Part shown: positions 1 through 35,556 of the stretch, piece by piece
Numbering within the stretch: position 1 is the stretch's first letter
Layout of the letters: each line of letters opens with the position of its first letter
The notes under the pieces: model-generated
Seen by the model: only the letters and a program-made list of their open reading frames with translations
Databases searched by the model: none
What the model was told of the DNA's origin: nothing
Source of the DNA: Alphaproteobacteria bacterium
GTDB taxonomy: Bacteria > Pseudomonadota > Alphaproteobacteria > Rickettsiales > JABCZZ01
Assembly: GCA_013288985.1 (NCBI GenBank)
Contig: JABDAT010000014.1
Span: forward strand, 1 to 36,568
Direction of reading: 5' to 3'
DNA length: 36,568 nucleotides
Program-made: the position numbers and the translations under genes

Positions 1-257
1 ACGACGGAGAATAGAATCATAACGCCGCCCATGGTGGGCGTGCCTTTCTTGGTAAGCAGGTGCGATTCGGGACCGTCTTCGCGTATGGGCTGGCCTTCGC
101 GCTGTTTGGCTTTAAGCCATCGTATAATAGCAGGGCCGCAGAGGAAGGTCATAACCAGGGAGGTAAGTACTGCGCCGCCGCTTCGGAAAGTAATATATTT
201 AAAAAGGTTGAAAGGTTCAAAATCATGCGCAAGCGGATAGAGCAGATTATAGAGCAT
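1..257 (-). CDS. mraY: MraY, phospho-N-acetylmuramoyl-pentapeptide transferase (N-terminal part, cut by window edge)
   Basis: MraY is the integral membrane enzyme that moves phospho-MurNAc-pentapeptide from UDP onto undecaprenyl phosphate to make lipid I. Only the first 85 residues are in the window. Translation of the minus strand from the ATG at 257 gives a start MLYNLLYPL, a first hydrophobic segment (about residues 27-40, [16 protein letters not shown]) and then the family signature KKGTPTMGG at about residues 69-77, which is diagnostic. The start codon lies inside the end of murF (11-bp overlap), so the two are translationally coupled. It is the seventh gene of the mraZ-led operon and presumably depends on the promoter near 6910. 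The gene continues beyond position 1. Confidence 0.95.
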
Positions 258-1671: not shown

Positions 1672-3155
1672 TACTTTGTTCTCTGCTCACATAATTTAAC
1701 CGCATAACGTGCGATCTCAGCATCATCGAAAGGCAATATTTTATCTCCGACAATCTGGGTTTTTTCATGCCCCTTGCCTGCAATTAACAGCACATCGCCT
1801 TTGTGCAGCGACTTAATCGCAACCGCGATAGCTTCTGCCCTCTCGCCCACATTTTTAGCACCCGGCGCACCCATCAATACTTCATTGCGAATCTGGGCCG
1901 GGTCCTCGGTGCGCGGATTATCATCGGTCACAATCACTTCATCAGCCAGCTCAATTGCGGCTTTTCCCATTTCCGACCGTTTACCTTTATCGCGATCGCC
2001 ACCGCAGCCAAAAACCACCACAAGCTTGCCTTTGGTATGTGGACGCATTGTTTTGAGCACATTGGCAAGCGCTGCAGGCGTATGGGCATAATCGACAAAA
2101 ATAGCGGCGCCGCTGGGATGATTGGCTACTTTTTCCACGCGTCCCGGCACGCTATGCAGATGCGGCAAATGCTTTAATCCGTCTTCAATGCTGCCGCCGC
2201 ACCCCACATATAAACCCAGTGCTGCAAGCGCATTCATGGCCTGGAAGGCACCCACCATATGCAACATGAAATGCTGCGACTTGCCCATAATCTCGGCCTG
2301 GATCGCAAGCCCTTCGAGCGTCGGCGTTATTTTCATGATGCGGTATTCGGTACCGTTATGGCCGTAACTGATCACATTTATATTGCGATCAGAGCATGCT
2401 TTTTTCAACCTGCGGAATTTAGCATCATCGGCATTGAGCACGGCAGTGCCCTGCACGGAAAGTATTTCAGTGAATAAGCGCATCTTTGCGCGGAAATACG
2501 CTTCCAGCGTATGATGATAATCAAGATGATCGCGCGTTAAATTGGTAAATGCGGCAGCGCGCAACTGCACCCCATCAAGACGGTATTGATCGAGCCCATG
2601 ACTGGATGCTTCAAACGCCACATACGGACATTGCTCTCCTGCAAGCGATTGCAATATCTGGTGCAGCTGCACGGGATCCGGCGTGGTGTTAATGGCCGGA
2701 AAGTTTGCGCTTTTAAGCGATCCAAGCACGCCAAGCGTGCCGATGGATGCCGCCTTCTGGTAACTCATCTGCCAGAGCTGGCGAAAGAAATCTGCAGTGG
2801 ATGTCTTGCCGTCTGTTCCCGTTACGGCAGCAATATAAGGAGGCTGCGGCACATAAAACGCGCCCGCCAATCTGGCAAGTGCCAGGCGCACATTTTCCAC
2901 TTTGATAAGCACTACGGATTTGGGTAATACAAGCTTACTGTCATAATTGGCTACTACTGCAACCGCGCCCTTCTTGACAGCGTCCATGGCATAGGCGCTG
3001 CCATCCGCATGCGATCCACGCACCGCCACAAACAAGGCTCCGGGCGTTACCTGCCTGGAATCCGCCGTCACCGACGCAATCGGCAATTGCTCAGCATTGC
3101 CGTCCATTGATAAAGCGCCGTGATATGCAGCTAATAATTCAGTAAGAAACGGCAT
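1671..3155 (-). CDS. murE: MurE, UDP-MurNAc-L-Ala-D-Glu--meso-diaminopimelate ligase
   Basis: MurE is a cytoplasmic Mur ligase that adds the third stem-peptide residue. The 494-residue protein has the N-terminal substrate-binding domain (ADSRQVTPGALFVAVRG, about 31-47), an ATP-binding P-loop TGTDGKTS (112-119), the TTPDP stretch of the central domain and a C-terminal domain with DNPR at 412-415. DNPR is the signature of enzymes that use meso-diaminopimelate rather than lysine, so the peptidoglycan is expected to be of the DAP type. The start overlaps the ftsI end by 17 bp and the stop overlaps the murF start by one base, which indicates tight translational coupling. Confidence 0.97.
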   Translation of the reverse strand: MPFLTELLAAYHGALSMDGNAEQLPIASVTADSRQVTPGALFVAVRGSHADGSAYAMDAVKKGAVAVVANYDSKLVLPKSVVLIKVENVRLALARLAGAFYVPQPPYIAAVTGTDGKTSTADFFRQLWQMSYQKAASIGTLGVLGSLKSANFPAINTTPDPVQLHQILQSLAGEQCPYVAFEASSHGLDQYRLDGVQLRAAAFTNLTRDHLDYHHTLEAYFRAKMRLFTEILSVQGTAVLNADDAKFRRLKKACSDRNINVISYGHNGTEYRIMKITPTLEGLAIQAEIMGKSQHFMLHMVGAFQAMNALAALGLYVGCGGSIEDGLKHLPHLHSVPGRVEKVANHPSGAAIFVDYAHTPAALANVLKTMRPHTKGKLVVVFGCGGDRDKGKRSEMGKAAIELADEVIVTDDNPRTEDPAQIRNEVLMGAPGAKNVGERAEAIAVAIKSLHKGDVLLIAGKGHEKTQIVGDKILPFDDAEIARYAVKLCEQRTK

Positions 3156-4911
3156 GTAAAAATCTTTGGTTTGCGTTGTTGACCCAATATTGGTTCACGG
3201 CGTCTTCAGGTACATCAAAAACAGGGCGAATGCCATACATAGGCGCCATGCGGCTGATAATATTTCCGACGATTGGCGCGGCAATCCAGCCAGCGGTGGC
3301 AAATCCGTAGGTTGATTTATTGCCATGCGGCTCATCTATCATCACGAGCACAATATATTTGGGATCATCGACGGGAAATGTGGATAAGAATAATGCAAGA
3401 TTGGCATGGCGGCTATAACCACCGCCATCGGCCACTTTTTCCGCCGTGCCGGTTTTGCCGCCTACGCGATAGCCTGGAACGTCGGCCTTTTTACCGGTAC
3501 CGTATTCCACCACCATGCGCATGAGACGGCGCATCTGGCGCGATGTTTTTTCGCTGATAACGCGTGGCCACTCGCCCTTATCGCTATTGCCATCTTTGAC
3601 CAGGGTAAGCGGCTCAAGCAGCCCACCGTTTATAACCGAGGCAAAAGCGCGCACCAGATGCAGCGGCGTTACCGACATGCCATGGCCATAGGCAATCGTC
3701 ATGGTATTGATCTCGCGCCAGTCGCTGGGGTAATGCGGCAATGCCACTGCCGGCAATTCAATTTTCAGAGGATCCATCAAACCGACTTTGCGCAGGAATT
3801 GCTGCTGGCGTTCGGTGCCGATATCCATTGCCATGCGCACCGTGCCGATATTGGATGAATAGGTATAGATTTCGGGAATCGTAAGCCAGCGGTTCTGAGC
3901 ATGCTCATCACGAATGGTGAAATGGGAATATTCAATCGGGTGCGTGGCATCGTAACTGTCGTTGAGATTGGCAACTCCGTAATCGAGCGCCATGGCGGTG
4001 GTGAACGTCTTAAAGGTCGAGCCCATTTCATACGTGCCGCTTGATGCGCGGTTAAAGCGCGCATTATCAGGAGCATTGCCAGGCTCGTTGGCGTCGAAAT
4101 CAGGCAGGTTGGCCATAGCAAGCACTTCACCGGAATGCAGATCGAGCACTATGCCTGTAGCGCCAATGGCATTGAATGCCTCCATACCTTGTTTCACTTC
4201 TTCATGGACGATATTCTGCACCCTTAGATCGAGCGAGAGCTTCAATGGTTCCTTCTGTTCTTTTGTATCGCGCAGCCGTTCATCAAAATAGCGCTCTATC
4301 CCGGCAAGCCCCTTATTATCAATGCCGACAAAACCCACCACATGCGACAGCAGATTGCCGTAAGGGTAAATGCGCTTCTGTTCGGATTGAAAGTAAAGCC
4401 CCGGAATTCCCAGATTATTGGCGGCGTGCTGCTGCTTGGGCGTCAGATTGCGCTTTATCCAGACAAAATCGGCATCGCGCTTAAGCTTCCTGGCTAAATC
4501 CTTGGCATCGAGCTCTGGGAATGTTTTGCTGATTCGCACTGCCGCTTCGTCCGCATCCGGTATATCGCGCGGATTGGCAAATAACGATTCGGTGGAAAGC
4601 GAGGTGGCAAGCACCAGGCCATTCCTGTCGACAATATCATTACGCGCCAGTTTAAGAGGAGCAGACAGATCTTCCAATGTCTGGTCATCGGCGCTGCTTG
4701 CGGGAACGCTGACCAAAGCATTATCGTCACTGTGATGCAGCACCATTATTTCGATAAGGCGGCAACCGATGCCAACGAAAAACAGGAAAAAGAATGCGGT
4801 AATACAGAAAAGACGGATATGGCTTTGGTCGATGAGTTTCTTACCGCTGCTTTCGCGTTGTATAATATTTTTTCTGCGTGATGCCTGTCCGCGCACGATG
4901 TCATCGGACAT
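3139..4911 (-). CDS. ftsI: FtsI, septal peptidoglycan transpeptidase (PBP3)
   Basis: FtsI is the class B penicillin-binding protein that cross-links septal peptidoglycan in the divisome. I chose the ATG at 4911, giving 590 residues; a TTG 18 bp upstream is in frame but has nothing to favour it. A single N-terminal membrane anchor lies at about 32-56. A dimerisation/pedestal domain follows (RNDIVDRNGLVLATS). The transpeptidase motifs are all present: STFK with the catalytic Ser (298-301), SSN (352-354) and KTGT (486-489). The gene overlaps ftsL by 11 bp upstream and murE by 17 bp downstream. It could in principle be another class B PBP, but position between ftsL and murE settles it. Confidence 0.96.
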   Translation of the reverse strand: MSDDIVRGQASRRKNIIQRESSGKKLIDQSHIRLFCITAFFFLFFVGIGCRLIEIMVLHHSDDNALVSVPASSADDQTLEDLSAPLKLARNDIVDRNGLVLATSLSTESLFANPRDIPDADEAAVRISKTFPELDAKDLARKLKRDADFVWIKRNLTPKQQHAANNLGIPGLYFQSEQKRIYPYGNLLSHVVGFVGIDNKGLAGIERYFDERLRDTKEQKEPLKLSLDLRVQNIVHEEVKQGMEAFNAIGATGIVLDLHSGEVLAMANLPDFDANEPGNAPDNARFNRASSGTYEMGSTFKTFTTAMALDYGVANLNDSYDATHPIEYSHFTIRDEHAQNRWLTIPEIYTYSSNIGTVRMAMDIGTERQQQFLRKVGLMDPLKIELPAVALPHYPSDWREINTMTIAYGHGMSVTPLHLVRAFASVINGGLLEPLTLVKDGNSDKGEWPRVISEKTSRQMRRLMRMVVEYGTGKKADVPGYRVGGKTGTAEKVADGGGYSRHANLALFLSTFPVDDPKYIVLVMIDEPHGNKSTYGFATAGWIAAPIVGNIISRMAPMYGIRPVFDVPEDAVNQYWVNNANQRFLHAVSY

Positions 4912-5269
4912 GGGCAACACCGCTGGCAAGCGTTAAACCGTCCGTCTGCGGCGCTTCATCTTCGCGTTCATTGGCCTGCTGAGATGCTGCTGTTCGCTGA
5001 CTATAAGGAAAGCTTGCAAAATCGGCAATCTGCTGGGCGTGGGCGGGCTTCACATCAAGGTATTTGGCTGACAGCTGGCGCAGGCGATCCGGCCTGTTAA
5101 GATAGGTCCATTCCGCGTCGAGTACATGCAGGTTTTTCTTTTCTTCACGCAATTGTTTTTCGGTTACCGCCACTTCGGTACGAATGGCCTGTACTTTATA
5201 TTTCACCATATAAAGGCCCAGCGCGCCCACCAGGAATAATACGCCCCACAATATGGTTGAGCGCATCAT
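4901..5269 (-). CDS. ftsL: FtsL-like cell division protein
   Basis: This is a 122-residue bitopic membrane protein. It has a short cytoplasmic start, one hydrophobic span (about residues 5-24, TILWGVLFLVGALGLYMVKY) and then a periplasmic heptad-rich helix (about 28-55, with EVAVTEKQLREEKKNLHVL). FtsL forms a coiled-coil complex with FtsB and FtsQ and activates FtsW/FtsI at the septum. FtsL sequences are poorly conserved, so the call rests mainly on topology, size and position between rsmH and ftsI. The motif AEWTYLNRPDRLRQLSAKYL after the coil is the usual alphaproteobacterial FtsL end of the helix. The start ATG overlaps the rsmH stop by 4 bp (ATGA). Confidence 0.88.
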   Translation of the reverse strand: MMRSTILWGVLFLVGALGLYMVKYKVQAIRTEVAVTEKQLREEKKNLHVLDAEWTYLNRPDRLRQLSAKYLDVKPAHAQQIADFASFPYSQRTAASQQANEREDEAPQTDGLTLASGVAHVR

Positions 5270-6249
5270 GCCGCCACCTCTGTGCGAATGGCGCAGCGTA
5301 ATTTAGCGGAACGCGCGCGCGGGTTGATACGTGCTTCGGACTGACTGGCCAAAACCGGTTTTCTCTGAGGGAGAAAAAAAGTGGGGAGGCGGTAAGCGGC
5401 TGCCTTTTGAGTTGCCTCAACAGGCGGCAGATGACGCGACCCTCCCCTAGTTTCGCCAGAACGCGACTGGAAAAATTGTTTAACGATGCGGTCTTCAAGT
5501 GAATGGAACGTCACCATCACAAGCCGTCCGTCTTTAACGAGCAGCTGTTCTGCGGCGCCAAGCGCCCGCTCTAATTCGCCAAGCTCGTCGTTTACTTTGA
5601 TGCGCAGCGCCTGGAAACTGCGCGTGGACGGATCAATGCCGTCTTTGCCGCGCACAATGCGGCGGATGATATTGGCCAGTTCGCTCGTGCGCATAATCGG
5701 CGCTTCCAAACGGGCTTTAACAATCGCGCGCGCTATCTGGCGGGATTGGCGTTCTTCACCATAATAATAGAGTATATTGGCGAGTTCTTCTTCATCTGCA
5801 TTATTGACGATATCGGCCGCCGATTCGCCCTGCCCGCTCATGCGCATATCCAGCGGACCATCATTTTTAAATGAGAAGCCGCGCTCGGCATTGTCAATCT
5901 GCATGGACGACACGCCGATATCAAGCACCACGCCGTGGATGGATTTTACACCTTTGGCTTGCAGCAACTGCACCATGTCGCTGAAACTGCCCAGCAGCCA
6001 GAAAAACCGGCCCGGAAAAGCTTCTGCCAGTTTTTCCGCCAGCGCCTTCACGCTGGGATCGCGGTCAATGGCGTAGACTGTGCATTGTGCTGCTTCAAGC
6101 AACGCACGGCTATAGCCGCCTGCGCCAAACGTGCCGTCCAGATATATTTCGCCGTCCGTGGGCTGCATGGCCTCCAGCACCTCGGGAAGCATGACAGGAA
6201 TATGCCGCGCGTTTTCCCTGCTCTTCGCTGCTCGCTCCCCGCCACTCAT
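5266..6249 (-). CDS. rsmH: RsmH (MraW), 16S rRNA (cytosine-1402-N4)-methyltransferase
   Basis: RsmH methylates N4 of C1402 in 16S rRNA, in the ribosomal P site, using S-adenosylmethionine. The 327-residue protein opens with RHIPVMLPEVLEAM, followed by the SAM-binding loop LDGTFGAGGYSRALL (about 38-52) and the family blocks VLDIGVSSMQIDNAERGFSF and GPLDMRM. Near the C terminus come the blocks FHSLEDRIVKQFF and INPRARSAKLR. Length and motifs are normal. It overlaps mraZ by 4 bp (ATGA) and ftsL by 4 bp, so it is the second gene of the coupled operon. Confidence 0.97.
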   Translation of the reverse strand: MSGGERAAKSRENARHIPVMLPEVLEAMQPTDGEIYLDGTFGAGGYSRALLEAAQCTVYAIDRDPSVKALAEKLAEAFPGRFFWLLGSFSDMVQLLQAKGVKSIHGVVLDIGVSSMQIDNAERGFSFKNDGPLDMRMSGQGESAADIVNNADEEELANILYYYGEERQSRQIARAIVKARLEAPIMRTSELANIIRRIVRGKDGIDPSTRSFQALRIKVNDELGELERALGAAEQLLVKDGRLVMVTFHSLEDRIVKQFFQSRSGETRGGSRHLPPVEATQKAAAYRLPTFFLPQRKPVLASQSEARINPRARSAKLRCAIRTEVAA

Positions 6250-6716
6250 GATGCACCGCCTTCACCGCGCAAACGCAGACGCTTCTCACGGGCAAGCTCA
6301 CGGGCGCGGGCAGCATATTCCGCAAATGCACGCGGCTCCCATATCTCAAATGTTTCGCCTTTGCCGATAAATACCGCCATTTCAGTGATGCCAGCCACTT
6401 CAATCAGCGCTTCGGGCAGCATTACGCGCCCTTCGCCGTCAAAGGATAATTGCTGGCTGCCGCCCAGGATGGTGGTCGCAAATGCGTCGCGCTCTTCCGA
6501 AAAAGGATCGAGCAGTTCAATACGGTTTGATAGCTTGCGGATGCGCTCAATACCGCAGGCCTCGACGCAGTGGTTGATAAAAGAGGCATAGGCAATAATG
6601 CCCGAAAATTCTTCACCCTTGGGAGTGACTTTGGCAAGCGCTGAACGAAACGTCGCAGGCACGGAAACCCGGCCCTTCTTGTCGACTTTGTTCTGGTATG
6701 TGGAGAGGAAAAGCAT
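6246..6716 (-). CDS. mraZ: MraZ, transcriptional regulator of the division/cell wall operon
   Basis: MraZ is a double SpoVT/AbrB-fold DNA-binding protein that represses its own operon by binding TGGG direct repeats. From the ATG at 6716 it has 156 residues. It begins MLFLSTYQNKVDKKGRVSVP, the standard N terminus with the first DxKGR(V)xxP loop. The second half carries the repeat DGEGRVMLPEALIE at about 105-118. The frame is open a further 34 codons upstream to 6818, but that extension has no MraZ similarity, while the 6716 ATG has a GTAAGG ribosome-binding site, so I use the shorter form. The matching operator array is found just upstream at 6853-6896. Confidence 0.95.
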   Translation of the reverse strand: MLFLSTYQNKVDKKGRVSVPATFRSALAKVTPKGEEFSGIIAYASFINHCVEACGIERIRKLSNRIELLDPFSEERDAFATTILGGSQQLSFDGEGRVMLPEALIEVAGITEMAVFIGKGETFEIWEPRAFAEYAARARELAREKRLRLRGEGGAS

Positions 6717-6852
6717 TGCCTTACTTTCAAAATTACTTCGCTTCAACCTGTCGACTTCGCACTCGCACTCTCTCAAGCATCCGAAGGTGCACCGCACCTG
6801 CAGCCGCTTGCCCAGCAAATATCAACGCCCCTTATCCTTTCAATCTCATTTA

Positions 6853-7066: not shown

Positions 7067-8518
7067 CTACACTGCGAGCGTGAGCGGTTTTTTCTCAGAC
7101 GCTTTGCTGACAAAGGATGTTTGAGCGGCAGAAGTGAGATTACTGTACTTCTTATCGTTTATCGCAAATGTCTTAGCGGGAGTTTCTGCCGTTATCACCT
7201 GCGGTGGCAAAGCCTCTTGCGTAGATTCTGTGGTGTTGGCTTTAAACCAGGGATTTTCATAACGCGATCTGTTTATTTCCTCACGCAGCAGCGTGTTTAT
7301 TTTTTCGCGTGAATCTTTGAATTCCACTCTCTCGCCCAAGAAATTAACAGTGGTTTGAATGGCAGCTTCGCGCTTGTCCTCAGGCACATGGTTTAAGACC
7401 TGGGCAGCCAGGCCATATACATCCTTTATCAAATCACCTTCAGTAATACTTCCGCCGGTCGTTTTATTGGAAAGCGCATAGAGGTTATTGCCCACAAGCA
7501 TGGAACTCGCCGTTGCCAGATCATATTTATAGAAATTACTGCTGGGGTCTTTCTTTCTCTCTTTAAACGCGCCGATGGTTGTGAATAACGTATTGGAAAG
7601 ACCAGACCAGCCGCCAATCCTCAAGGGTTTTTCCTGCACAAAAGCCCAGGCCTTTTCCAAAGGTCCGGCAGTTTTTAGTTTTTCAGGATCGGGCTTCTTT
7701 TCTTTTATGAATAAAGTAGAGCCAAACCCTAAACTGAAAATAACAGCTGTCGCCCGTTTCCAGGGATTTTTCTGATCTATGCCAGCCTTGAAATACGAAA
7801 CGCCGCCGGCCACTTCAGCCAAGGCTTTGATAGCACTTATATGCTCATGAATAAAATCATGCGCCTTTTCTAACAATCTGCCTTTGCCGGATCGCGTCTC
7901 TGCATTGAGAGCGGAACCGGAAGGTATTTCAATACCGTCATCTTCCAGATGATTTTTGAGTTTTTTAAGAAGCGACTTGAATTGCCTTTTGTCATCCTTA
8001 TCGCCGAATAAAGCTATCAGCAAATCACTGGATGAAAATGCAATGCCCGTTGCTATCTGTCCCCAATCTTTTTTGCCCGAAGCCTTATTGCGCGCAATGC
8101 CGGAGATAATATAAAGCGCATTGCCAATGGTGTAAAATATGCCTGCTCCCTTGAGGCTGTTATTCTTTATAGCATCCATCGCATTTCTGGATTCAGATTT
8201 ACCCGAATCATTGCTGGAGATGGCGGGCACGCCTTGCGCATATCCTCCCTCTTGCAGAATATTCACAAGCTCATTCGCATCTTTAATACCGGTGAGGCGC
8301 AATACAGGTTTTCCGTTGCGCGTGTCTGAAGAGCTCGCCCAACCTTTTTGCTTAAATATTTCACGCAACTCATGCAGCCTTGAATATTGCTCGGATGCAT
8401 TTTCAGATGCATAGATATAAGCTACAGCATTGCCTTTATCCTGTACGCGCACATCCATCTGCGCAACAAGCGATGGGCTGTTCCACTGATAGGTTTTTAC
8501 AAATGACGTCTTCGCCAT
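7067..8518 (-). CDS. Unknown membrane-associated protein, 483 aa
   Basis: I do not recognise this protein. Residues 1-95 look like a compact alpha/beta domain (strand-rich start, then LHELREIFKQKGW and a closing VLRLTGIKDANELVNILQEGGY). The rest contains several weakly hydrophobic, glycine-rich helices: GAGIFYTIGNALYIISGIA (about 124-142), ATGIAFSSSDLLIALFG, ALAEVAGGVSYFKAG, ATAVIFSLGFGSTLFI and GLSNTLFTTIGAF. There is no N-terminal signal peptide. The C-terminal 80 residues are polar and probably disordered, ending KKPLTLAV. It stands alone, divergent from the 8794 gene. Its upstream region carries the 11-bp-phased GTAAC promoter shared with other unknown genes in this window. An envelope or secreted substrate role is possible but is inference. 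Confidence 0.8.
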   Translation of the reverse strand: MAKTSFVKTYQWNSPSLVAQMDVRVQDKGNAVAYIYASENASEQYSRLHELREIFKQKGWASSSDTRNGKPVLRLTGIKDANELVNILQEGGYAQGVPAISSNDSGKSESRNAMDAIKNNSLKGAGIFYTIGNALYIISGIARNKASGKKDWGQIATGIAFSSSDLLIALFGDKDDKRQFKSLLKKLKNHLEDDGIEIPSGSALNAETRSGKGRLLEKAHDFIHEHISAIKALAEVAGGVSYFKAGIDQKNPWKRATAVIFSLGFGSTLFIKEKKPDPEKLKTAGPLEKAWAFVQEKPLRIGGWSGLSNTLFTTIGAFKERKKDPSSNFYKYDLATASSMLVGNNLYALSNKTTGGSITEGDLIKDVYGLAAQVLNHVPEDKREAAIQTTVNFLGERVEFKDSREKINTLLREEINRSRYENPWFKANTTESTQEALPPQVITAETPAKTFAINDKKYSNLTSAAQTSFVSKASEKKPLTLAV

Positions 8519-8558: not shown

Positions 8559-8592
8559 TTTATAGCACGTATTGGTTACGGAAATGTTACAG
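8559..8592 (-). promoter_or_regulatory. Pho-box-like promoter of the 7067 gene
   Basis: In gene direction CTGTAAC (8592-8586), four bases and CCGTAAC (8581-8575) form two half-sites 11 bp apart, followed after exactly 10 bp by TATAAA (8564-8559). No good sigma70 -35 hexamer is present. The predicted leader is about 35 nt. Confidence 0.65.
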
Positions 8593-8716: not shown

Positions 8717-8762
8717 ACGTAACATAATCTTAACTTTAGTTAAACCATCGCCATGGTAAGCT
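8717..8762 (+). promoter_or_regulatory. Pho-box-like promoter of the 8794 gene
   Basis: Three half-sites on the plus strand, ACGTAAC (8717), TCTTAAC (8728) and GTTAAAC (8739), have an exact 11-bp period. A weak -10 (TAAGCT, 8757-8762) lies 11 bp after the last one. This is the only member of the set on the plus strand, and the repeats turn with the gene. Confidence 0.58.
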
Positions 8763-8793
8763 GAAAGCCTATTTCCTATAGGGTTAAGTGTAT

Positions 8794-11700
8794 ATGGCAG
8801 ACCAAAAACATTTCATCATCTCCGATAAATGTTCTTTGCCCCAACGCAAAGTCTTTGAAGCAATCAATCGCGGTCTTGATGAATTTGGCATTTCACCGGA
8901 GGAATTTGATAATGCCTTCCGCATCCAGCTCATGAAGCAATGCCTTATGGTTCCTGTCACATCACGAGTATCTTTTATAGATAAACTTGATGCCAAATCA
9001 CAAAGAGAGTTTTTTAACTATAAACCTGAAATAAAGCATACTAATGAAGACAACCGCAGACGCTATATGCATGTGATGGGCGGAACTAGGGATCATTTTA
9101 TAGAAACCACATTACCTGAGACTTATTATACTCCCCAAGAAGCGTACAGAATCCTCGAAAATATTGAGGGGCCGTCGGTGACTGCTTGCAGAACGAAAAT
9201 GATCGAGGGTTTTAATAAGATAGCGGGACCCTTTCAAGATATTAATCCGGAAACTTTCTCTCCATCTGCCCGGCAATTATATGATAATTTTTTCCAAGAA
9301 GCCGATCCCAAATTTAAGCCCCATTATACAGAACATGGATACCGTAATATTGTACAGCAATATGCAGATGGCAAAATGCTTGATGATAGGAAAGGTGATT
9401 ATTGGGAATGGGATGTCTTCGGCTCTCAAAATAAACGCGCTCATTTTGAAACAGCTCCATTTAACTATTACATTACCAACGCCGTTATAAATGCATTGAG
9501 AACAGCAATCGTAGCTAAAGAAATTAATATATCTGTTTATGAAAGAAAGGCTGAGCAGATCAACAAAGACATTCTCATAGCGATGCACACTGTAACGGGC
9601 CATATGTCAACGGAGGATTTTGGAGCCTATCTGGCCGAGCAAGAAGCTGCCAAACGGGCTGTTGAGCAGGCCGCCATTGCAGCTGCGTTAAAAGCGCAAC
9701 AGGAATTGGAGGCAGCTGCGCAAAGAGCTATTGCCGCCACTCAATTGCAAGAAGAAGGGCTACTTAAACATTCTCCTTACGGCGTTATGCCCGGCTTGCG
9801 CGGCATTGCCGATCGTGCCACACGAACCACCTCGCCGCCAGAAATAACCTTAAGGGAAACATGGCAACAGATTGAGCCTTTATGCGCCGAATTAAACCGG
9901 AATTTTACCCCTCATCTGCGTTTAGGAAATGCATTATTCAAAGACAAAGATAGCGAAATAGTACGTATCCTGGATTACATTGGTACGGGCAAAAACAAAG
10001 GGACGCAGTATAAAATTTTACCTAACGATATAGATTTGGCAAAACGCGCAGAAGCGTGCAATGCCATGCTGGACATACTCGCCACCCCCATAGAACAACT
10101 AGCCCCCGAACTCAAAACCGCAGGCATCAGAGAACAATTGATTGAAAATAATCGGCTATGCCACGAAGCAGTTATGCATGGATTACCTAAAGCTCCCATC
10201 CTTGTAATCGCTGCATTGGGTAATAAAGGAATAATTGATGATGCGCGGGCCTGGCAGGATATGCTCTTTCCGGCAGATGTGAAAAATGCTCCTTCTGAGA
10301 CTGAAGCGCACGAATACAGAAAAGAACTGGAAGTGCTGGCCGCACAATCATTGGAAAACGCATTTCATGAAACGGGAAGAGCAATTCCTCCCTCCCTGGC
10401 ATCCGTAATAGAGGATATGAAAGCTCCACTTCCCGAACCACTGTTACCGGTAAAGCCTACTGTAACAGAGAGAGTGAAGAAACCTGTTATCATTGGCGAT
10501 GCCCGCGCTTGGGATGAGATACGCGCATCAGCCGATAAATTCGTCGATGAAAATTTAGCGCAGCAACCTCCTTATGACATGTTCAAATGTTCCCTGGGAA
10601 TGCAGCCCGGTCATACATTAACGTTGAGTCTTTCCCGTTGGGTGGGGAATAATGGGCAGCGTCACAGTGAAGAGCATAGTTGTACCTTGCAATTGAAAGA
10701 ACCTAGTCTGGAAAATGCCCTTGCAATGAAGAAGCAATTGCAGAGCCATATTTTTAATACAAAACCCATCGTTGAATATCGCCGTCTGCATTCAGGCAAT
10801 TATATCTCTAATGACGATAATTTCTTACCCAAACTTTCTCCAACTCCTGATCCTATACGGCCTGAACCGGATGGAACTGCAGGGCGAATTATCAAGCGTG
10901 ATGGAGTATATTGCACAAAATTTATTTTTCCTGCTGCTGAAAATACGGCAGAAAAAATTGAAACAATCATACCTTTGGGCGTTTCCCAAAGCGGTGATTT
11001 CAATGATGCCGATAAACGCCGCTTACAGGTGCTTGATTATCTTGCGGAAGCCAGAGCTGATAATGATCATGTCACCTCGCAGGATCTACGCATGCGATTG
11101 CAAGACACCGTCATTGCCGGACAAGGTCAATGGCAACGGGCAGACACTATTGACTTGAAAGAACATGAAGAAATAGCGCGCGTTATCACTGTAAGATTTC
11201 CTTATTCAGAAAGCAAAGAAAGCACCACGCTAAACGTAAAAAATCCGGAATTGCAAGGCACGCCAACGCCTTTTTGGACTATTCCTGTTTCAATTCGTAT
11301 GGACGGAAAAGAAATAGCGCAAACAAGAGTCAATACCCATATTGTCGATACGGATATGGCCATGAATCGTATTGCGGAAATTACCAATCACCTGAAATCC
11401 GGGTTAGAAAAATATGCGGCAGACCACCCTGATTCCACATGGGAAATGGGTTTGAATCAAAGGCTGGCGCAATTGAAGGAAGTGGAGCTTAACGCAACCG
11501 ATAATATCGACTGGACACGGCTGGATCGGATTAAAGATGAGCTCGGATATGTCCGCCAGCTTTCGGTGCATCTCTCTGAATCTCAGAATATTGCCAATGG
11601 TCAGGCAGAATTTTCATTAAGCATACGGCGCGCGGATGGCTCGCCGTTTTTTGAAGAGCGCGACGGAGTACGCCATGCAGAGCCTGTGGAACGGAAGTTT

Positions 11701-12093
11701 TTTACTGGCGCGTCGTCTATAGATGCCGAAACGTTTCGCAGCCAGGTGCATGCCCGGTTCGTTACAGCGATGGAAGAAGCCTATCGCCCCGATCGCGATC
11801 CGGCATTTGAAACTATTGCAAGTGATACTCCCCTTCGAAAAGCCCTGGAACAATATAATGCGCGTTCCATTACCAATATGTTTGATGGCGCAGTGCGTGA
11901 CGTATCCGCTCAAGTTAATGCCGCCGGGCAGACCATTACAAAATTGTCTAAAGCTTCAGAAAACATAATTAAGTCTGCAGGAAATGTAGGCCTCGCCAAT
12001 GAGGAAGCGCATCATCATCTGCCTTTCTCGCAAAGATATGCTGCTTCTTTGGAACACCACAGAAATGGCGGCAGCAAATCATTCTCTATTTAA
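8794..12093 (+). CDS. Unknown large protein, about 1,099 aa
   Basis: I do not recognise this protein. The ATG at 8794 is preceded by an in-frame GTG at 8788, and a weak AGGG lies upstream. It has no signal peptide and no clear transmembrane segment. Residues 1-280 are mixed alpha/beta, rich in Tyr, Phe and charged residues. About 280-325 is an Ala/Glu/Gln-rich helix (AKRAVEQAAIAAALKAQQEL), a likely coiled coil. The C-terminal half appears to hold several degenerate beta-rich units of about 100-150 residues, each with a strand pair such as TLTLSLSRWVG, WTIPVSIRMDG or AEFSLSIRRADG followed by a helix. It ends in a His-rich segment (EEAHHHLPF). Size, soluble character and regulation shared with the membrane proteins would suit an exported or effector protein, but no secretion signal is visible. 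Confidence 0.82.
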   Translation: MADQKHFIISDKCSLPQRKVFEAINRGLDEFGISPEEFDNAFRIQLMKQCLMVPVTSRVSFIDKLDAKSQREFFNYKPEIKHTNEDNRRRYMHVMGGTRDHFIETTLPETYYTPQEAYRILENIEGPSVTACRTKMIEGFNKIAGPFQDINPETFSPSARQLYDNFFQEADPKFKPHYTEHGYRNIVQQYADGKMLDDRKGDYWEWDVFGSQNKRAHFETAPFNYYITNAVINALRTAIVAKEINISVYERKAEQINKDILIAMHTVTGHMSTEDFGAYLAEQEAAKRAVEQAAIAAALKAQQELEAAAQRAIAATQLQEEGLLKHSPYGVMPGLRGIADRATRTTSPPEITLRETWQQIEPLCAELNRNFTPHLRLGNALFKDKDSEIVRILDYIGTGKNKGTQYKILPNDIDLAKRAEACNAMLDILATPIEQLAPELKTAGIREQLIENNRLCHEAVMHGLPKAPILVIAALGNKGIIDDARAWQDMLFPADVKNAPSETEAHEYRKELEVLAAQSLENAFHETGRAIPPSLASVIEDMKAPLPEPLLPVKPTVTERVKKPVIIGDARAWDEIRASADKFVDENLAQQPPYDMFKCSLGMQPGHTLTLSLSRWVGNNGQRHSEEHSCTLQLKEPSLENALAMKKQLQSHIFNTKPIVEYRRLHSGNYISNDDNFLPKLSPTPDPIRPEPDGTAGRIIKRDGVYCTKFIFPAAENTAEKIETIIPLGVSQSGDFNDADKRRLQVLDYLAEARADNDHVTSQDLRMRLQDTVIAGQGQWQRADTIDLKEHEEIARVITVRFPYSESKESTTLNVKNPELQGTPTPFWTIPVSIRMDGKEIAQTRVNTHIVDTDMAMNRIAEITNHLKSGLEKYAADHPDSTWEMGLNQRLAQLKEVELNATDNIDWTRLDRIKDELGYVRQLSVHLSESQNIANGQAEFSLSIRRADGSPFFEERDGVRHAEPVERKFFTGASSIDAETFRSQVHARFVTAMEEAYRPDRDPAFETIASDTPLRKALEQYNARSITNMFDGAVRDVSAQVNAAGQTITKLSKASENIIKSAGNVGLANEEAHHHLPFSQRYAASLEHHRNGGSKSFSI

Positions 12094-23809: not shown

Positions 23810-24718
23810 TTATTTTTCCATTGGGCCAATGCCTGGACGTGCAGAGCCCGGTGAACCTGCTGCTCCGTCATTTCTTACCAAGCCATGCGCTAACTTTACA
23901 GCATCATCTACTCTAGTTTTTACTCCATCAGGAAGCCTATCTTTAAGATCATTTAACCTATCACGTAAATCACCGAATATATTTGTCGTAGTTTCTCTAA
24001 GTCCCTGCATACGTTCTGAATTTATAAATTCCGTTGCCGTCTGCTTAACTCCATCCAATGATACATCTATACCCGCTTTATCAGCCTGGGTAGCAAGCGT
24101 ATCAAGCGCTTTTCCTAATTGTTCGGCAATTACCGGAACAATTATACCACCCGATTTTCCTGTAAAAGGCATAAAATGGCCTTCAAGATCAATAATAGTC
24201 TTTGCAGCATTACGAAGGGCGGAAACACCAGGTAAACCATTGATAAAAGGTAAGCTTGCAACGCCATGGGCTGCTGCCAATCCCCCTATACTTAGACCCG
24301 CAGCTTTATCTGCAAGTCCTCTAAGTCCTTTTTCCTGAGCAGCTTGGGGTCTTGAAGCCAACTGTGCATCTATCGCTTCCTGTATTTCTTTTGCATCACG
24401 CAAACCATTACAATAAGTCTCGAATTGTGCCATTGCCTGCTCTTCACCCGCCTGGCCAACATACATAACAGCCCACTCATTCACTTTCTTCTTAACTACA
24501 TCAGCATCTAGCTCAGGAGCAAATGCAAGCAGACGTTCTGTTAATTCTCCTGCAAATTTTGCGACGCTTTTTTTAGGTTCTGCGGCAGTCACAACAGGAA
24601 CGGATTCAGGCGGATTGGATATAATGGTATGCCCGGTCGAAGTTTGATTAACATCTACCGCACTGGGTGCACCAGGAATAATTATCACCTGGGCTTCGGC
24701 TGGCTTATCTGCAATCAT
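23810..24718 (-). CDS. Unknown protein, 302 aa, with glycine/alanine-rich hydrophobic helices
   Basis: I do not recognise this protein. The ATG at 24718 is chosen because AAGGA lies 8 bp upstream. The first 60 residues are polar and Pro/Val/Thr-rich, with no signal peptide. About 60-140 is helical and acidic (AGELTERLLAFAPELDADVVKK, AMAQFETYCNGLRDAKEIQEAI). About 145-215 has weakly hydrophobic Gly/Ala helices (GLSIGGLAAAHGVASLPFIN, GGIIVPVIAEQLGKALDTLA). The C-terminal part has an amphipathic repeat DLRDRLNDLKDRLPDGVK and a Gly/Pro/Ser tail. It is a single-gene unit with a Pho-box-like promoter, like the unknown genes at 27-35 kb. Confidence 0.8.
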   Translation of the reverse strand: MIADKPAEAQVIIIPGAPSAVDVNQTSTGHTIISNPPESVPVVTAAEPKKSVAKFAGELTERLLAFAPELDADVVKKKVNEWAVMYVGQAGEEQAMAQFETYCNGLRDAKEIQEAIDAQLASRPQAAQEKGLRGLADKAAGLSIGGLAAAHGVASLPFINGLPGVSALRNAAKTIIDLEGHFMPFTGKSGGIIVPVIAEQLGKALDTLATQADKAGIDVSLDGVKQTATEFINSERMQGLRETTTNIFGDLRDRLNDLKDRLPDGVKTRVDDAVKLAHGLVRNDGAAGSPGSARPGIGPMEK

Positions 24719-24754
24719 AACGCATCCTTTAAAAAACAATTTTCCTTATCTCTG

Positions 24755-24799
24755 ACCTTAGCAGAAAATTGTTACCGTTTTATTAATGTTGTGTGACGA
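24755..24799 (-). promoter_or_regulatory. Pho-box-like promoter of the 23810 gene, three half-sites
   Basis: In gene direction TCGTCAC (24799-24793), CATTAAT (24788-24782) and CGGTAAC (24777-24771) have an 11-bp period. TAAGGT (24760-24755) follows after exactly 10 bp. The outer part is nearly identical to the site at 35539-35556. Confidence 0.68.
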
Positions 24800-24985
24800 A
24801 TACATGAAAATCGTGGATTGTCAGCAAAGGTCGTCATATCAAACATATGGCTGATATACCTACATAATCATCATTTTATTTCCCTTGCCTGCATAAAGCA
24901 TAACCCTCTAAAAATTATTCAGCCCGTCCATTTTTGCTTAACATCGGGTATTGAAATAGGGATTATTCCCTGATATAGTTTATTC

Positions 24986-26583: not shown

Positions 26584-27081
26584 CTAGCTTTTGGACCGGC
26601 GGTCGACGTAGACGCCCTTGCCTTCAGTATCCAAATCCTTCTCAGGGCGGAAATGCGCGCGCATGGCGGGACGGGCAAAAAGCGGGCGCTGGCCCATGCT
26701 TTTGGCATAGACCCACACCAACCCTGCCATGACGACAATCGCAAGACCAAATACCCAGATAAAGGCCGCTGTCGTGCTGTTGCCATGAATGCCTATTACG
26801 GCTGCCGATATAAACACGGTTGCCGCAATACAGAAACCCAGGACTTGTCCGAGAATAGTGCTGAACGTGTGGGTTTTGAGCGCATTGGCTTCCCATTCAT
26901 GACGGTGTTTCTGCTCCGCTTCAAACATGGTCAGAATGCGCGCGGCAGAACCTTCCACCACATAATCATAGCCTTCGAGAAGTTCCGGACTTGGCAGAAA
27001 GTCAGAGCGCGCGCGGCCGCTCGCACCGCCACGGTTCTTCTGTCCCCCGCTATCCCGATCGTCGTTATTACGATTGCTCAT
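26584..27081 (-). CDS. DUF2335 membrane protein
   Basis: This is a 165-residue protein from the ATG at 27081, chosen because AGGAGGAG lies 8 bp upstream. It has a polar Asn/Arg/Gly-rich start, then the block PSPELLEGYDYVVEGSAARILTMFEAEQKHRHEWE (about residues 30-64), which matches the DUF2335 pattern of a PPxxLxxY...PGxAxRIL...EQxHR segment. Two membrane spans follow (about 80-100 VLGFCIAATVFISAAVIGI and 105-125 TAAFIWVFGLAIVVMAGLVWVY), then a basic tail. Function is unknown; such proteins are often near mobile or host-interaction genes. It overlaps the end of the small 27068 gene by 14 bp, so the two are probably translated together. Confidence 0.86.
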   Translation of the reverse strand: MSNRNNDDRDSGGQKNRGGASGRARSDFLPSPELLEGYDYVVEGSAARILTMFEAEQKHRHEWEANALKTHTFSTILGQVLGFCIAATVFISAAVIGIHGNSTTAAFIWVFGLAIVVMAGLVWVYAKSMGQRPLFARPAMRAHFRPEKDLDTEGKGVYVDRRSKS

Positions 27082-27268
27082 CTTCTGCTTCTCCTCCTGC
27101 ATTTGCTCCCTCGAAACTCTGGGTAGCAGCTTCGATGTCGCCGCCAATACGTTTCCAGTCGCTGCGGAAAGCCTCCAATGTATTACGGTAAGGGTAGCGG
27201 TAAAGCGGTGGGCTTGTCACTGTCAAAGCAGAGACTATGCCGTACATAAATCCTTTTACCATGCTCAT
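27068..27268 (-). CDS. Small unknown protein upstream of the DUF2335 gene
   Basis: This is a 66-residue product. The ATG at 27268 is preceded by AGAGGTG at 7 bp; an in-frame GTG lies 9 bp earlier. It begins MSMVKGFMYGIVSALTVTSPP, a weakly hydrophobic start, then YRYPYRNTLEAFRSDWKRIGGDIEAA and an acidic tail. Overlap with the DUF2335 gene and the strong ribosome-binding site argue that it is real. The leader carries a perfect 7-bp inverted repeat (27293-27311). Confidence 0.62.
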   Translation of the reverse strand: MSMVKGFMYGIVSALTVTSPPLYRYPYRNTLEAFRSDWKRIGGDIEAATQSFEGANAGGEAEDEQS

Positions 27269-27292
27269 AATTATCACCTCTTGCTGCGCATA

Positions 27293-27388: not shown

Positions 27389-28537
27389 TTATCCTACACG
27401 GCCGTATGTCCGCGCAGGAGGAGTATTGAAGTGGGTATCGACTTTGCTCACAATAAGCTTATTGCCAATGGTGATAGGAGGCCGGGCATTCTGCGGTGCG
27501 CCGGAATTAAATTTTGTATTCTCTTGATTTGCACCAGCATTTCCCTGCAACTGCAATGCCGCCATTTGTTGCTTAAATACCTGCACGCGCTCCAATACTT
27601 CCGCAGGGCGCAATTTGGCCTCACAACATTGCCTTGCAAACATATAAACCCGATTTTCATCGGCATCCCTGCCAATAAATCCGGTTATGAGCCCCTTATA
27701 CGTCTCCAGACTTGCCGCTCCTGATTGCGCGAACTCATTATGCAGCTTGCTATAGGATGAAAGCGCCGTATTGCCTGCGGTAATAGCGCCTGCAGCGGCA
27801 TTGGTACCCATACCAAGCACTAGAGATCCAATCATTCCCCACCCGCCATTACCCCGACCTGAAAGTAAAAGAATGGAGTTGGCAATAGTGCCCCCCACCT
27901 GCAGAAAAGTAGCTAACCCTGCCTTGGCACCACTGACTTCCTGACGTGCTGCTTTCACGATGGGGTGCAAATTATTGCTCCACCGCGCTTCCGAGGCAGA
28001 AGGCATTGTACCGGTAAGATCAAACTGCATCTGCCTGAGTGCCTGTATGCGCTGCGTTAAGGTAAGGGTGGTGTTTACCATTTCGCCCACCACCATCGTT
28101 CCCGATATGATGGTATTGGCTACAGTATTTTGTGCCAAGGTGTTTGTAACTTTTGGTCCAAGCCTCTGATTAGCAAATTCAGTAAGAGTGATACTGCTGT
28201 TTTTTACAAATTGCGAAGCGGTCTGAGCAACCTTGCTTTCACCCACTGCAGCAGCGAACGCATCGGAGAATTCTGCAACCGTTGCATTAGGCAATTGAGC
28301 TATATTCACCGCTTTCTGCATGGAAGGAGCGGCTTTTGCAAATGGCTTTTTATCTGCAAAAAAACCAATGGCTGCGCCTATCATTGGGCCAATGAATGCC
28401 AACGAAGACAGGCTGCTGGAAAAACGTCCAACCCCAGCAAGTGCGCTATCCACAGGCGAACTGGAAATCACCACATTACGGGGAGCCGCTCCTGTACGTC
28501 CAATAGTAGGTGTTTTCAATGCTACGCCCGCTGGCAT
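27389..28537 (-). CDS. Unknown protein, 382 aa, with FNSGAP-type C-terminal motif
   Basis: I do not recognise this protein. AAGGAT lies 9 bp before the ATG. It has no signal peptide. A hydrophobic glycine-rich segment lies at about 43-62 (LSSLAFIGPMIGAAIGFFAD). A long Thr/Asn/Ala-rich helical region follows, and then two more Gly-rich hydrophobic stretches at about 215-260 (LQVGGTIANSILLLSG, WGMIGSLVLGMGTNAAAGAITAG). The C-terminal 70 residues are polar and contain NTKFNSGAPQNARPP, which resembles the NIRFNSGPPP and NTRFNIGPPP motifs of the next gene. A short helix with RPAEVLERVQVFKQQMAAL precedes it. The upstream promoter is the best Pho-box-like example in the window. Confidence 0.8.
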   Translation of the reverse strand: MPAGVALKTPTIGRTGAAPRNVVISSSPVDSALAGVGRFSSSLSSLAFIGPMIGAAIGFFADKKPFAKAAPSMQKAVNIAQLPNATVAEFSDAFAAAVGESKVAQTASQFVKNSSITLTEFANQRLGPKVTNTLAQNTVANTIISGTMVVGEMVNTTLTLTQRIQALRQMQFDLTGTMPSASEARWSNNLHPIVKAARQEVSGAKAGLATFLQVGGTIANSILLLSGRGNGGWGMIGSLVLGMGTNAAAGAITAGNTALSSYSKLHNEFAQSGAASLETYKGLITGFIGRDADENRVYMFARQCCEAKLRPAEVLERVQVFKQQMAALQLQGNAGANQENTKFNSGAPQNARPPITIGNKLIVSKVDTHFNTPPARTYGRVG

Positions 28538-28598
28538 GACACTTAATCCTTATGATAACTCATTCAATCCCTTACAGTATAAAGGCCTGTAAGCATAA

Positions 28599-28632
28599 AT
28601 TATAGCCTAGTTTGGTTAATTATTTATGACGA
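28599..28632 (-). promoter_or_regulatory. Pho-box-like promoter of the 27389 gene
   Basis: In gene direction TCGTCAT (28632-28626), AAAT, AATTAAC (28621-28615), 10 bp and a perfect TATAAT (28604-28599). The 11-bp half-site period and 10-bp gap to the -10 match the other members of the set. Confidence 0.72.
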
Positions 28633-28658
28633 TTGGGGGTTAAAAAAGGCTTAAAAGC

Positions 28659-29984
28659 CTACACAGCCCTAGTATAAGGCTCTTTCTGAGCTGCTTTTTC
28701 CACCTTCGAAGCGGGCGGAGGGCCAATATTAAAGCGTGTATTGCGGGTATCGCCCAATTGGGCGGCGAAATCAGTTTTATCCTGCATATTTATGGTGGAA
28801 TCGGCTTGGGATGACGGAGGGGGACCACTATTAAATCGGATATTCTGGGGTTCACTCCCCTTCTCAACTTCCTTTGCAACCGGTGATGTCATCATGACCG
28901 GAAATTGCTGCAAAACATCTTCCAGTTTTGCACCCTGAGCCAGCGCCTGCGTCATTTGCTTGACGGCATTCATGCCATAACGATTGGCAATTTCAACATA
29001 GGCCAGATTCTGCTCCGGCTGTTCTTCTTTAATTAACCCCATTCCCAAAAGATAAAGAAGTTTGGGCACGGTAAAATTGGCCTGTTCTTTGTCAGGAGTA
29101 TTACCGTAGGTCTGGTTCATCAGCTCCGCCATACGTCCAAATAATACCTTGTCATTTTGCGCGGATGCGGAGTTCACGTCAAAATACGTGGGTTGGCCAT
29201 TGCTCATGCCATTATCCCGCAAATGTATCTCATAAATTTTGACAAGCTCATCGGCAGTTACAGGTTCCTTTACCCGGTTCTTCTGCTGGTTCAGTTTAAG
29301 ATCAATAAATTTCTGCAACGCTTCAAAGAATGTTTCCTTGCGGGAAAGCCAGTCTTTTACAAGGTAAGCACCCGTTACACCCGTACCAAGATCCACGGAA
29401 TTATAAATGCTCATTCCGCCCTTGCCATTCTTCCATTCCAATACTCCCGGAATAAGAAAATTGAAGAAAGGTAGGCTCGTAAAAGCAAGACGGTTGATAT
29501 TATATTTAACGAAGTTATTAGCCGTCGTATTGATAATGGCGTTTTTGCTTTCCTGCATATCACGCAACGATATGTTGGCAGGCGCTTTATCGTATCCATT
29601 CTCCCATCCCAGCATTTCGGAAAATACGCGCTGCATATCATTCATAGTGTGCTTGGCATAAAAGCCGGTAACACCTGCCATTACCACTCCGACAATAATG
29701 CCGTAAAAATTCTTTATGAGAGGCTTGATGAAATTGAGACGGCCAAGGTCTTTACTGAAATCTTCAAACCTCAATAAATTGGAAACCCAGCGTCCGAGAT
29801 AACGCGTCGATAGCATGGGAATGGCAAGCTGCCAGAATCCCGATTGATATTGGCCAAAACGGCTAGTTATAGTGGTATGGTCCAAATTCTTTTTTTCCGC
29901 AGGCATAGATTGGCCTGCCGCCAATCCCTCAATGGGACCAGCAAGATCAGGAGTTCTATTTTTATTATCCGTTTCTAATGCCAT
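28659..29984 (-). CDS. Unknown membrane protein, 441 aa, paralogue of the 30138 gene
   Basis: I do not recognise the family. It has a polar N terminus without signal peptide. A membrane segment lies at about 95-112 (FYGIIVGVVMAGVTGFYA), a second hydrophobic block at about 168-185 (LAFTSLPFFNFLIPGVL), and possibly a third near 205 (DLGTGVTGAYLVKDWL). The block ISLRDMQESKNAIINTTANNF aligns with ISLKDMVTSENPLIQTAMNRF in the 30138 product, and similarity continues through LVKIYEIHLRDNG / LVDIIQKNRKEHG. The C-terminal 60 residues carry two copies of a motif, NIRFNSGPPPSS and NTRFNIGPPPAS, separated by about 30 residues. The product ends PYTRAV. Confidence 0.82.
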   Translation of the reverse strand: MALETDNKNRTPDLAGPIEGLAAGQSMPAEKKNLDHTTITSRFGQYQSGFWQLAIPMLSTRYLGRWVSNLLRFEDFSKDLGRLNFIKPLIKNFYGIIVGVVMAGVTGFYAKHTMNDMQRVFSEMLGWENGYDKAPANISLRDMQESKNAIINTTANNFVKYNINRLAFTSLPFFNFLIPGVLEWKNGKGGMSIYNSVDLGTGVTGAYLVKDWLSRKETFFEALQKFIDLKLNQQKNRVKEPVTADELVKIYEIHLRDNGMSNGQPTYFDVNSASAQNDKVLFGRMAELMNQTYGNTPDKEQANFTVPKLLYLLGMGLIKEEQPEQNLAYVEIANRYGMNAVKQMTQALAQGAKLEDVLQQFPVMMTSPVAKEVEKGSEPQNIRFNSGPPPSSQADSTINMQDKTDFAAQLGDTRNTRFNIGPPPASKVEKAAQKEPYTRAV

Positions 29985-30043: not shown

Positions 30044-30077
30044 ATTACAGCAGAACTTTATGAAGATTTGATTACAA
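30044..30077 (-). promoter_or_regulatory. Pho-box-like promoter of the 28659 gene
   Basis: In gene direction TTGTAAT (30077-30071), CAAA, TCTTCAT (30066-30060), 10 bp and TGTAAT (30049-30044). The half-sites are weaker but the spacing is the same as elsewhere. Confidence 0.55.
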
Positions 30078-31313: not shown

Positions 31314-31347
31314 ATTCTAACAGAGAAATGTGACAGTTTTATGACGA
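31314..31347 (-). promoter_or_regulatory. Pho-box-like promoter of the 30138 gene, closest to the classic Pho box
   Basis: In gene direction TCGTCAT (31347-31341), AAAA, CTGTCAC (31336-31330), 10 bp and TAGAAT (31319-31314). It matches 16 of 18 positions of the classic Pho box CTGTCATAWAWCTGTCAY. Confidence 0.75.
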
Positions 31348-33376: not shown

Positions 33377-33410
33377 AACCTAACACCAAATTGTTACAAT
33401 ATTATGAAGT
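33377..33410 (-). promoter_or_regulatory. Pho-box-like promoter of the 31372 gene
   Basis: In gene direction ACTTCAT (33410-33404), AATA, TTGTAAC (33399-33393), 10 bp and TAGGTT (33382-33377). Transcription would begin near 33370, about 30 nt before the MSDEY start. Confidence 0.65.
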
Positions 33411-34783: not shown

Positions 34784-35449
34784 TCAACGCCCATTATGTT
34801 TTACGTTGGCATAGATGAGCGCAGCCCCGGTAGCAATAAGACCGGGGAAAGTGACATAGGTAAACGGCAGGGAGATATCTTTTGCCGCCTCTCTGTCGAG
34901 GCCTGTCACACGCTGAATCATATCCGCCAACCCATGATGCATATTTTCTGAAATCCCGGCAAACAAGGGGCTGGGGGCCAACGCTATACACCCTAGATGG
35001 GAGACACCTTCCACTATGGCTGTGCCCACAGGATGGCTATCAACTTTTAAAGAATGATTGAAGATTTTTTGTAATGCAATGGTAGCGCCAAAATCCCAGA
35101 GCAACGCGTTGGCGACCGTAACCAATGAATCAGAAATAACATACGCTTTTTTCTTGGAATCGGACCAACGGCCATCCTCCTCCAGCAGCGACTCACCACG
35201 TTTCACAAGCTCTTCGCGCTTCTTCTTATCGTGCTTTTCGTTGGCACGGCGAATACCGCTTGAAAGCGCATCAAAAATTTTGGGATTAGATTCGACAATA
35301 TTTTCAGCCACCCATGTTTTAAGGGCTTTCATTTGCTCAGGGATAAGCTTCTCAGTCCAATAGACCGCACCGAGCGTAATCGGCACAACGCCAAGGCCGG
35401 CTCCCAGGACGGATATATTAATCTTGGCTCTATCACTAAGCTCAGACAT
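34784..35449 (-). CDS. Unknown membrane protein, 221 aa
   Basis: I do not recognise this protein. AAGGG lies 6 bp before the ATG. It starts MSELSDRAKINISVL and has a hydrophobic segment at about 12-30 (ISVLGAGLGVVPITLGAVYW). A charged helical stretch follows (RRANEKHDKKKREELVKRGE, about 67-86), then LVTVANALLWDFGATIALQ (about 109-127), GCIALAPSPLFAG and a C-terminal span (TYVTFPGLIATGAALIYANV). The Gly/Ala-rich character matches the other unknown proteins of the region, although I see no alignable block. The upstream region carries the two-half-site element nearly identical to that of the 23810 gene. Confidence 0.78.
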   Translation of the reverse strand: MSELSDRAKINISVLGAGLGVVPITLGAVYWTEKLIPEQMKALKTWVAENIVESNPKIFDALSSGIRRANEKHDKKKREELVKRGESLLEEDGRWSDSKKKAYVISDSLVTVANALLWDFGATIALQKIFNHSLKVDSHPVGTAIVEGVSHLGCIALAPSPLFAGISENMHHGLADMIQRVTGLDREAAKDISLPFTYVTFPGLIATGAALIYANVKHNGR

Positions 35450-35533: not shown

Positions 35534-35556
35534 TTCGTATGAATATTGTGTGACAA
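35534..35556 (-). promoter_or_regulatory. Pho-box-like element of the 34784 gene
   Basis: In gene direction TTGTCAC (35556-35550), ACAA and TATTCAT (35545-35539). A TACGAA (35539-35534) lies 10 bp after the first half-site. The -10 is weak, so the exact start is uncertain. The 23-bp block matches the upstream site of the 23810 gene at about 19 positions. Confidence 0.5.

Follow-up and report, generated by a model that had tools for sequence, protein, structure and literature searches.

What could place one short peptide motif, in more than one copy, in the C-terminal tails of two neighbouring proteins whose bodies do not resemble each other? The question arises from P1 and P2, two genes in the window (the whole stretch of DNA analysed, 36,568 nucleotides, contig C14 of a 1.31 Mb assembly, 61% complete, of a little-studied relative of Rickettsia). 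The original prediction described a repeated tail motif in two unknown proteins and offered a secretion signal, a protease site or a docking site for a common partner as its role. Here we examine the motif, the promoter element and gene cluster that go with it, and the explanations that have to be weighed. Gene calls are mechanical and the genome sequence was read in the stretches around matches; coordinates are collected in Table 1.

The FN motif in the tails of P1 and P2

All four motif strings quoted in the original prediction are present in the translations of P1 and P2, and within P2 the step from NIRFNSGPPP to NTRFNIGPPP is 34 residues. AlphaFold2 confidence is low from about residue 342 of P1 and about residue 375 of P2, so that the motifs sit in tails that are probably disordered. 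The two bodies, said at the outset to be unlike, are indeed without detectable homology (hhalign probability <1%), and the wider proposal of homology among P1, P2 and P4 was likewise unsupported by hhalign profile comparison at <1%. With composition correction off, BLASTP weakly joins residues 295–357 of P1 with residues 334–398 of P2, motif included (E 0.004). At the DNA level, the pattern for FN.G[PA]P has three matches in the 1.31-Mb assembly, all of them in the P1 and P2 tails, against none for a reversed-pattern control. The motif is not a fresh DNA copy, because the two genes use different synonymous codons for it: P1 encodes the serine with TCC and P2 with AGT, and other positions differ as well.

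Table 1. Positions of genes, promoter boxes and tail motifs in the window, followed by the tails of three unlinked proteins of the same genome.
Feature	Position	Strand	Remarks
Promoter box of 483-aa gene 7067-8518	8576..8590	-	gene tail reads KTFAIND...TSFVSKA
Promoter box of 1101-aa gene 8788-12093	8719..8733	+	
Overlapping promoter boxes of 309-aa gene 23810-24739	24772..24808	-	
DUF2335 membrane protein	26584..27147	-	homologs 46-68% identical in relatives' GTA clusters
69-aa protein	27068..27277	-	homologs 37-59% identical, adjoining DUF2335 gene in relatives' GTA clusters
P1	27389..28537	-	382 aa; helical body with hydrophobic segments; low-confidence tail from ~aa 342
P1 second motif THFNTPPAR	27410..27436	-	aa 368-376
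P1 IGNKLIV	27449..27469	-	aa 357-363; probable decayed remnant of ancestral VGx[HF]TxK[LIV], judged from alignment
P1 tail motif NTKFNSGAP	27494..27520	-	aa 340-348
P1 promoter box	28616..28630	-	GTCATAAATAATTAA (KTMA-N7-KTMA)
P2	28659..29984	-	441 aa; tail from ~aa 375 predicted disordered
P2 tail motif NTRFNIGPPP	28713..28742	-	aa 415-424
P2 DFAAQL	28755..28772	-	aa 405-410; retained copy of ancestral F-[TA]-x-[KRQ]-[ILV]
P2 tail motif NIRFNSGPPP	28815..28844	-	aa 381-390
P2 promoter box	30061..30075	-	GTAATCAAATCTTCA
P3	30138..31244	-	368 aa; without FN motif
P3 promoter box	31331..31345	-	GTCATAAAACTGTCA
P4	31372..33339	-	~655 aa from ATG start; NFWRELV in tail
P4 promoter box	33394..33408	-	TTCATAATATTGTAA
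Gene divergent from P4	33500..34255	+	homologs near P4 in relatives' GTA clusters
Promoter box of 221-aa gene 34784-35449	35540..35554	-	
L228 tail			RFNTQPP, then NYTDKA
L233 tail			RYNLKPP
L240 tail			QFDNNPP, then PFATNI

A shared promoter box and unlinked carriers of the motif

A direct repeat, KTMA-N7-KTMA, with an 11-bp period stands upstream of P1–P4 and of the genes at 7067, 8788, 23810, 33500 and 34784; the housekeeping genes tested in the window all lack it. Positions 1–6818 hold an ordinary cell-wall cluster (MurF, MurE, FtsI-like, RsmH) in which the box is absent. Across the genome there are 46 matches against 21 for the reversed pattern, from which about half of the matches are probably real. 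The box is also present in relatives, before P4 in 10 of 10 cases, before P1 in 12 of 14 and before P2 or P3 in 5 of 10 (all five being unlinked P2 genes), compared with 25 of 189 controls. A direct repeat of this period upstream of member genes is the arrangement looked for under OmpR/PhoB/CtrA-type control, and we take the box to resemble the pho and CtrA boxes. On these grounds P1, P2 and the other carriers would be made together under an activator of that type.

Most candidate members of this regulon are without a Pfam family. The exceptions include a peptidoglycan-binding CHAP protein (L211:3398-4870) and an M48 peptidase (L232:274-1086; tail SSFANKHQ), both encoded behind the box and neither with an obvious N-terminal signal peptide, as well as a single 794-aa frame of nine tandem TrbC/VirB2 pilin domains, also behind the box (L217:2487-4871; G000:C5, ~44.5-46.9 kb).

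The tails encoded behind the boxes were read, and three proteins unlinked to P1 and P2 (L228, L233 and L240) were found to end with a relaxed form of the motif. The relaxed pattern, [RKHQ][FY][ND]..[PA]P, is partly post hoc, having been widened after the new matches had been viewed; with it, the 49 candidate regulon proteins give 6 tail sites in 5 tails against 0.02 in shuffled tails of the same composition, with no site in the bodies of the same 49 proteins or in 125 control proteins. The motif lies 25–59 residues from the C-terminal end. All five genes with the FN motif (P1, P2, L228, L233, L240) have the box upstream; for L228, whose gene starts at C11:14101, it is 73 bp before the ATG. Two further pattern matches, in L228 at 2797 and in L131 at 1444, fall in short open frames and were judged spurious, and a loose FN pattern has 20 matches in the genome, mostly outside the tails of real genes. 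The FN form is confined to a minority of the candidate regulon. Expectation-maximisation (EM) motif search over all 38 regulon tails gave nothing above the shuffled level, and the tag is therefore claimed for a subset only.

The core of the original prediction, that co-regulated proteins have a short linear motif in C termini that are disordered, is borne out as far as the suggested pattern search combined with the promoter element could be run: matches in plausible genes are C-terminal and stand behind the shared box, with low AlphaFold2 confidence in the tails of P1 and P2, so that what was found is not the unrestricted scatter, at no more than the expected frequency, that would speak against it. 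Its description of two unknown proteins is right for P1 and P2 and too low as a total, since five proteins of the genome carry the motif.

These counts bear on two explanations that assign the motif no partner, and chance and recent DNA copying are both unlikely as its source. A chance likeness between proline-rich, low-complexity tails would draw on the shortness of the motif, on the single incomplete genome and on a relaxed pattern set after the fact, but the expectation of 0.02 sites against 6 observed in composition-keeping shuffles, together with the confinement of the strict pattern to the P1 and P2 tails genome-wide, makes it very improbable. Alternatively, the similarity might be inherited or copied, as an old common C-terminal region of P1 and P2 or by gene conversion, and have no special role. 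P1 and P2 are neighbouring genes and their tails are joined by the weak BLASTP match mentioned above; against this stand the synonymous codon differences (including the two serine codons), the profile comparison, the sister-genus orthologs of P1 and P2, which are without the FN form, and its presence on three unlinked, unlike proteins. We regard inheritance or copying as improbable, though less so than chance.

An older motif in the tails of related proteins

Among 344 genomes of the order, 43 have relatives of P2 and 23 have relatives of P1. P3 is a weak paralog of P2 (BLASTP E 0.003), placed in the same family by iterated HMM search. The FN form is known from one species, represented by one incomplete genome, and orthologs of P1 and P2 are without it; in many of them an older motif, [FWHY]-[TA]-x-[KRQ]-[ILV], occupies the corresponding place in the tail. 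In the window, P1 IGNKLIV aligns with the conserved VGxHTxK[LIV] column of the orthologs, and both tails have a common layout of FN motif, old motif (in P1 its probable remnant) and FN motif. As judged from these sequences, the FN form appears to replace the older motif, which is found across several families of the order.

EM searches recovered related patterns from the separate families. P1 tails alone, with the P1 of the window left out, gave [VIL]-G-[KD]-[HFY]-T-[AS]-[KRQ]-[LIV] (log-likelihood 112.7, with shuffled tails reaching at most 98.6). From P2 tails of families f1 and f23 came T-x-x-[DE]-F-A (76.8 against 61.3) and from P3-like tails K-[ST]-F-[AT]-[DE] (52.7 against 49.1); P4 tails alone gave nothing above the null. 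A common regex, [FHYW]T.[KRQD][ILVMY], which was written after the tails had been viewed, was scored in the last 90 residues and has 8 sites in P1 (0.20 shuffled), 3 in P4 (0.13) and 4 in P2 of f1 and f23 (0.21), with weak enrichment in P3; the same region of 399 control proteins is not enriched, with 9 sites against 10.1. The older motif is also present in three P1 tails that had not been used in its definition (GDHTAKV, GEHTARI and GKFTSKL), from a family already sampled; in families f5 and f29, neither P1 nor P2 has it.

Other tail repeats were seen in these families. P2 tails of family f29 (L046, L054, L055, L056, L058) have a different common motif, KGS[TS]xQ[LIV][DE], and two sister-genus P2 orthologs have internally repeated tails of other kinds, with KAIAEGHDN[IV]RK twice in G002 and DERNV[RK] units twice in G003 (L019:2469-3200, L028:9435-10790).

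Gene-transfer-agent clusters and the possible partner

Orthologs of P4, P3 and P1 in Rickettsiales MAGs lie inside gene-transfer-agent (GTA) clusters that resemble RcGTA, adjoining the tape-measure gene. In G249 (L099), the P4-P3-P1 run immediately precedes a tape-measure-like gene, which is followed by DUF2460, the Gp84 hub, a 72-aa gene, DUF2335, NlpC and tail genes. P4, P3 and/or P1 stand between the major-tail region and the tape measure or g12 in G249, G254, G025, G252 and others, with the GTA_TIM/Phage-tail_3 (g15) gene identified in G254 and G025, and runs of the P4-P3-P1 type occur in several further relatives. Encoding within a head-tail gene cluster, as expected of a GTA component, is thus seen in the relatives. 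In the genome of the window the P block is on C14 and the homologs of g12 and the hub are on C5, and the block is not beside GTA structural genes. Because homologs of the 69-aa protein, the DUF2335 protein and the 33500 gene are also found at GTA loci, the block looks like the relatives' cluster minus tape-measure, g12 and g13.

None of these proteins could be linked by homology to a structural protein known from GTAs or phages, whether by Pfam and PHROG searches (no family for P1–P4), by tblastn against phage records (no match for P2 or P4) or by fold searches of the PDB and viral folds (no match for P1 or P2). The sole match in a search of viral contigs was L127 (IMGVR_UViG_3300028429_000543); over the queried gene it matches the G249 cluster, from a Rickettsiales MAG, at 100% identity, and so is probably a bacterial GTA locus. 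The relatives' clusters resemble the RcGTA-like GTAs of Alphaproteobacteria in grouping P4-P3-P1 with DUF2460 (g12), the Gp84 hub (g13), NlpC (g14), GTA_TIM/Phage-tail_3 (g15) and a tape-measure-like gene. They differ in that P4 has no phage match; a sample of 386 genomes of the class yielded P4 in three genomes of the order and, weakly, in one beyond it. The known RcGTA does not, to our knowledge, include P1–P4, the 69-aa protein or the 33500-type gene.

Among the three roles first offered for the motif, docking to a common partner fits best, a secretion signal being a special case of docking. Four things can be read directly from sequence: that the motif exists, that it is C-terminal, that the carriers' genes have a promoter box in common, and that P1, P3, P4 and the genes around them are syntenic with GTA clusters in relatives. 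We put at about 0.55 the probability that the FN motif is a docking tag, carried on the flexible tails of co-produced proteins and bound by one common partner. P1, P2 and three or more unlinked proteins would expose the tag outside a helical, often membrane-spanning body, and the partner would gather or load the carriers. Several carriers in this lineage would have undergone a parallel drift of the tag, F-[TA]-x-[KR]-[ILV] giving way to F-N-x-x-P-P, presumably because they track the same pocket. The weakest step is the identity of the partner, which may belong to a GTA-related particle or to an export machine: synteny with GTA genes speaks for the assembly or loading of particles, and type IV secretion is suggested by the VirB2-array gene together with the peptidoglycan-binding member. 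C-terminal cargo and docking peptides in general are likewise short and aromatic-centred, and are borne in one or two copies on the disordered tails of proteins with unlike bodies; the FN motif is not known to match any of them.

The motif might instead be a cleavage site, at which a GTA prohead protease or a regulatory protease, for example, would free the tails or mature the proteins. A site that separates a folded body from a short tail suits tail removal, one gene in the cluster of relatives stands, to judge from its place and sequence, where a prohead protease would be expected, and the M48 peptidase gene is behind a promoter box. Two copies per tail flanking an older motif would be unusual for cleavage, however, the distance from motif to body is not fixed and the motif matches no known specificity, all of which makes this explanation scarcely more probable than chance likeness.

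A translocation signal for the type IV secretion (rvh) system, read by the coupling protein, would mean that the regulon encodes proteins for secretion. Orphan proteins that bear C-terminal tags and stand under a box of the response-regulator type recall the Icm/Dot effectors of Legionella, where many unrelated orphans with C-terminal signals are controlled by PmrA or CpxR through one response-regulator box (PMC2701608). The likeness extends to unrelated orphan proteins under one box with signals in their tails; the organism and the type of secretion are different, and here an explicit motif is present on some members only and translocation is putative. The same box precedes the protein of nine TrbC/VirB2 domains, and one candidate member is the CHAP protein; for free-living Rickettsiales, an rvh system that kills bacteria has been proposed to have peptidoglycan-binding proteins among its substrates, and no verified effector could be assigned to it (PMC9352585). 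P1 and P2 do have the motif in a C terminus that is probably unstructured, as would be expected of rvh substrates, although this is necessary and far from sufficient. Arguing the other way, P1, P3 and P4 sit in the GTA clusters of relatives and not near secretion genes, the tag is missing from most regulon tails, and many carriers have several hydrophobic segments. We consider an rvh signal unlikely, if the strongest of the competing explanations.

Extending the docking tag to the whole regulon leads to a more tentative proposal, which we think possible but doubtful: of dozens of box-controlled orphan proteins in free-living relatives of Rickettsia, a subset would be loaded by a lineage-tuned C-terminal tag onto a GTA-derived particle or a type IV secretion machine, and the wording of the tag would change in concert across its carriers as the receptor evolves. 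If the tags do bind one receptor, the parallel replacement of F-[TA]-x-[KR]-[ILV] by F-N-x-x-P-P would give a natural instance of many ligands drifting in coordination with a single partner. For the genomes of free-living Rickettsiales two handles are gained, the promoter box, which lists candidate members, and the tail motifs, which mark some of them. The lineages also have apparent GTA clusters with an accessory gene set that lacks a match in phage records. In a machine-learning survey, none of 70 Rickettsiales genomes is listed with a predicted GTA (PMC6821227). Apparent RcGTA-like clusters were seen in Rickettsiales MAGs at L099/L107/L108, L087, L091, L088 and others.
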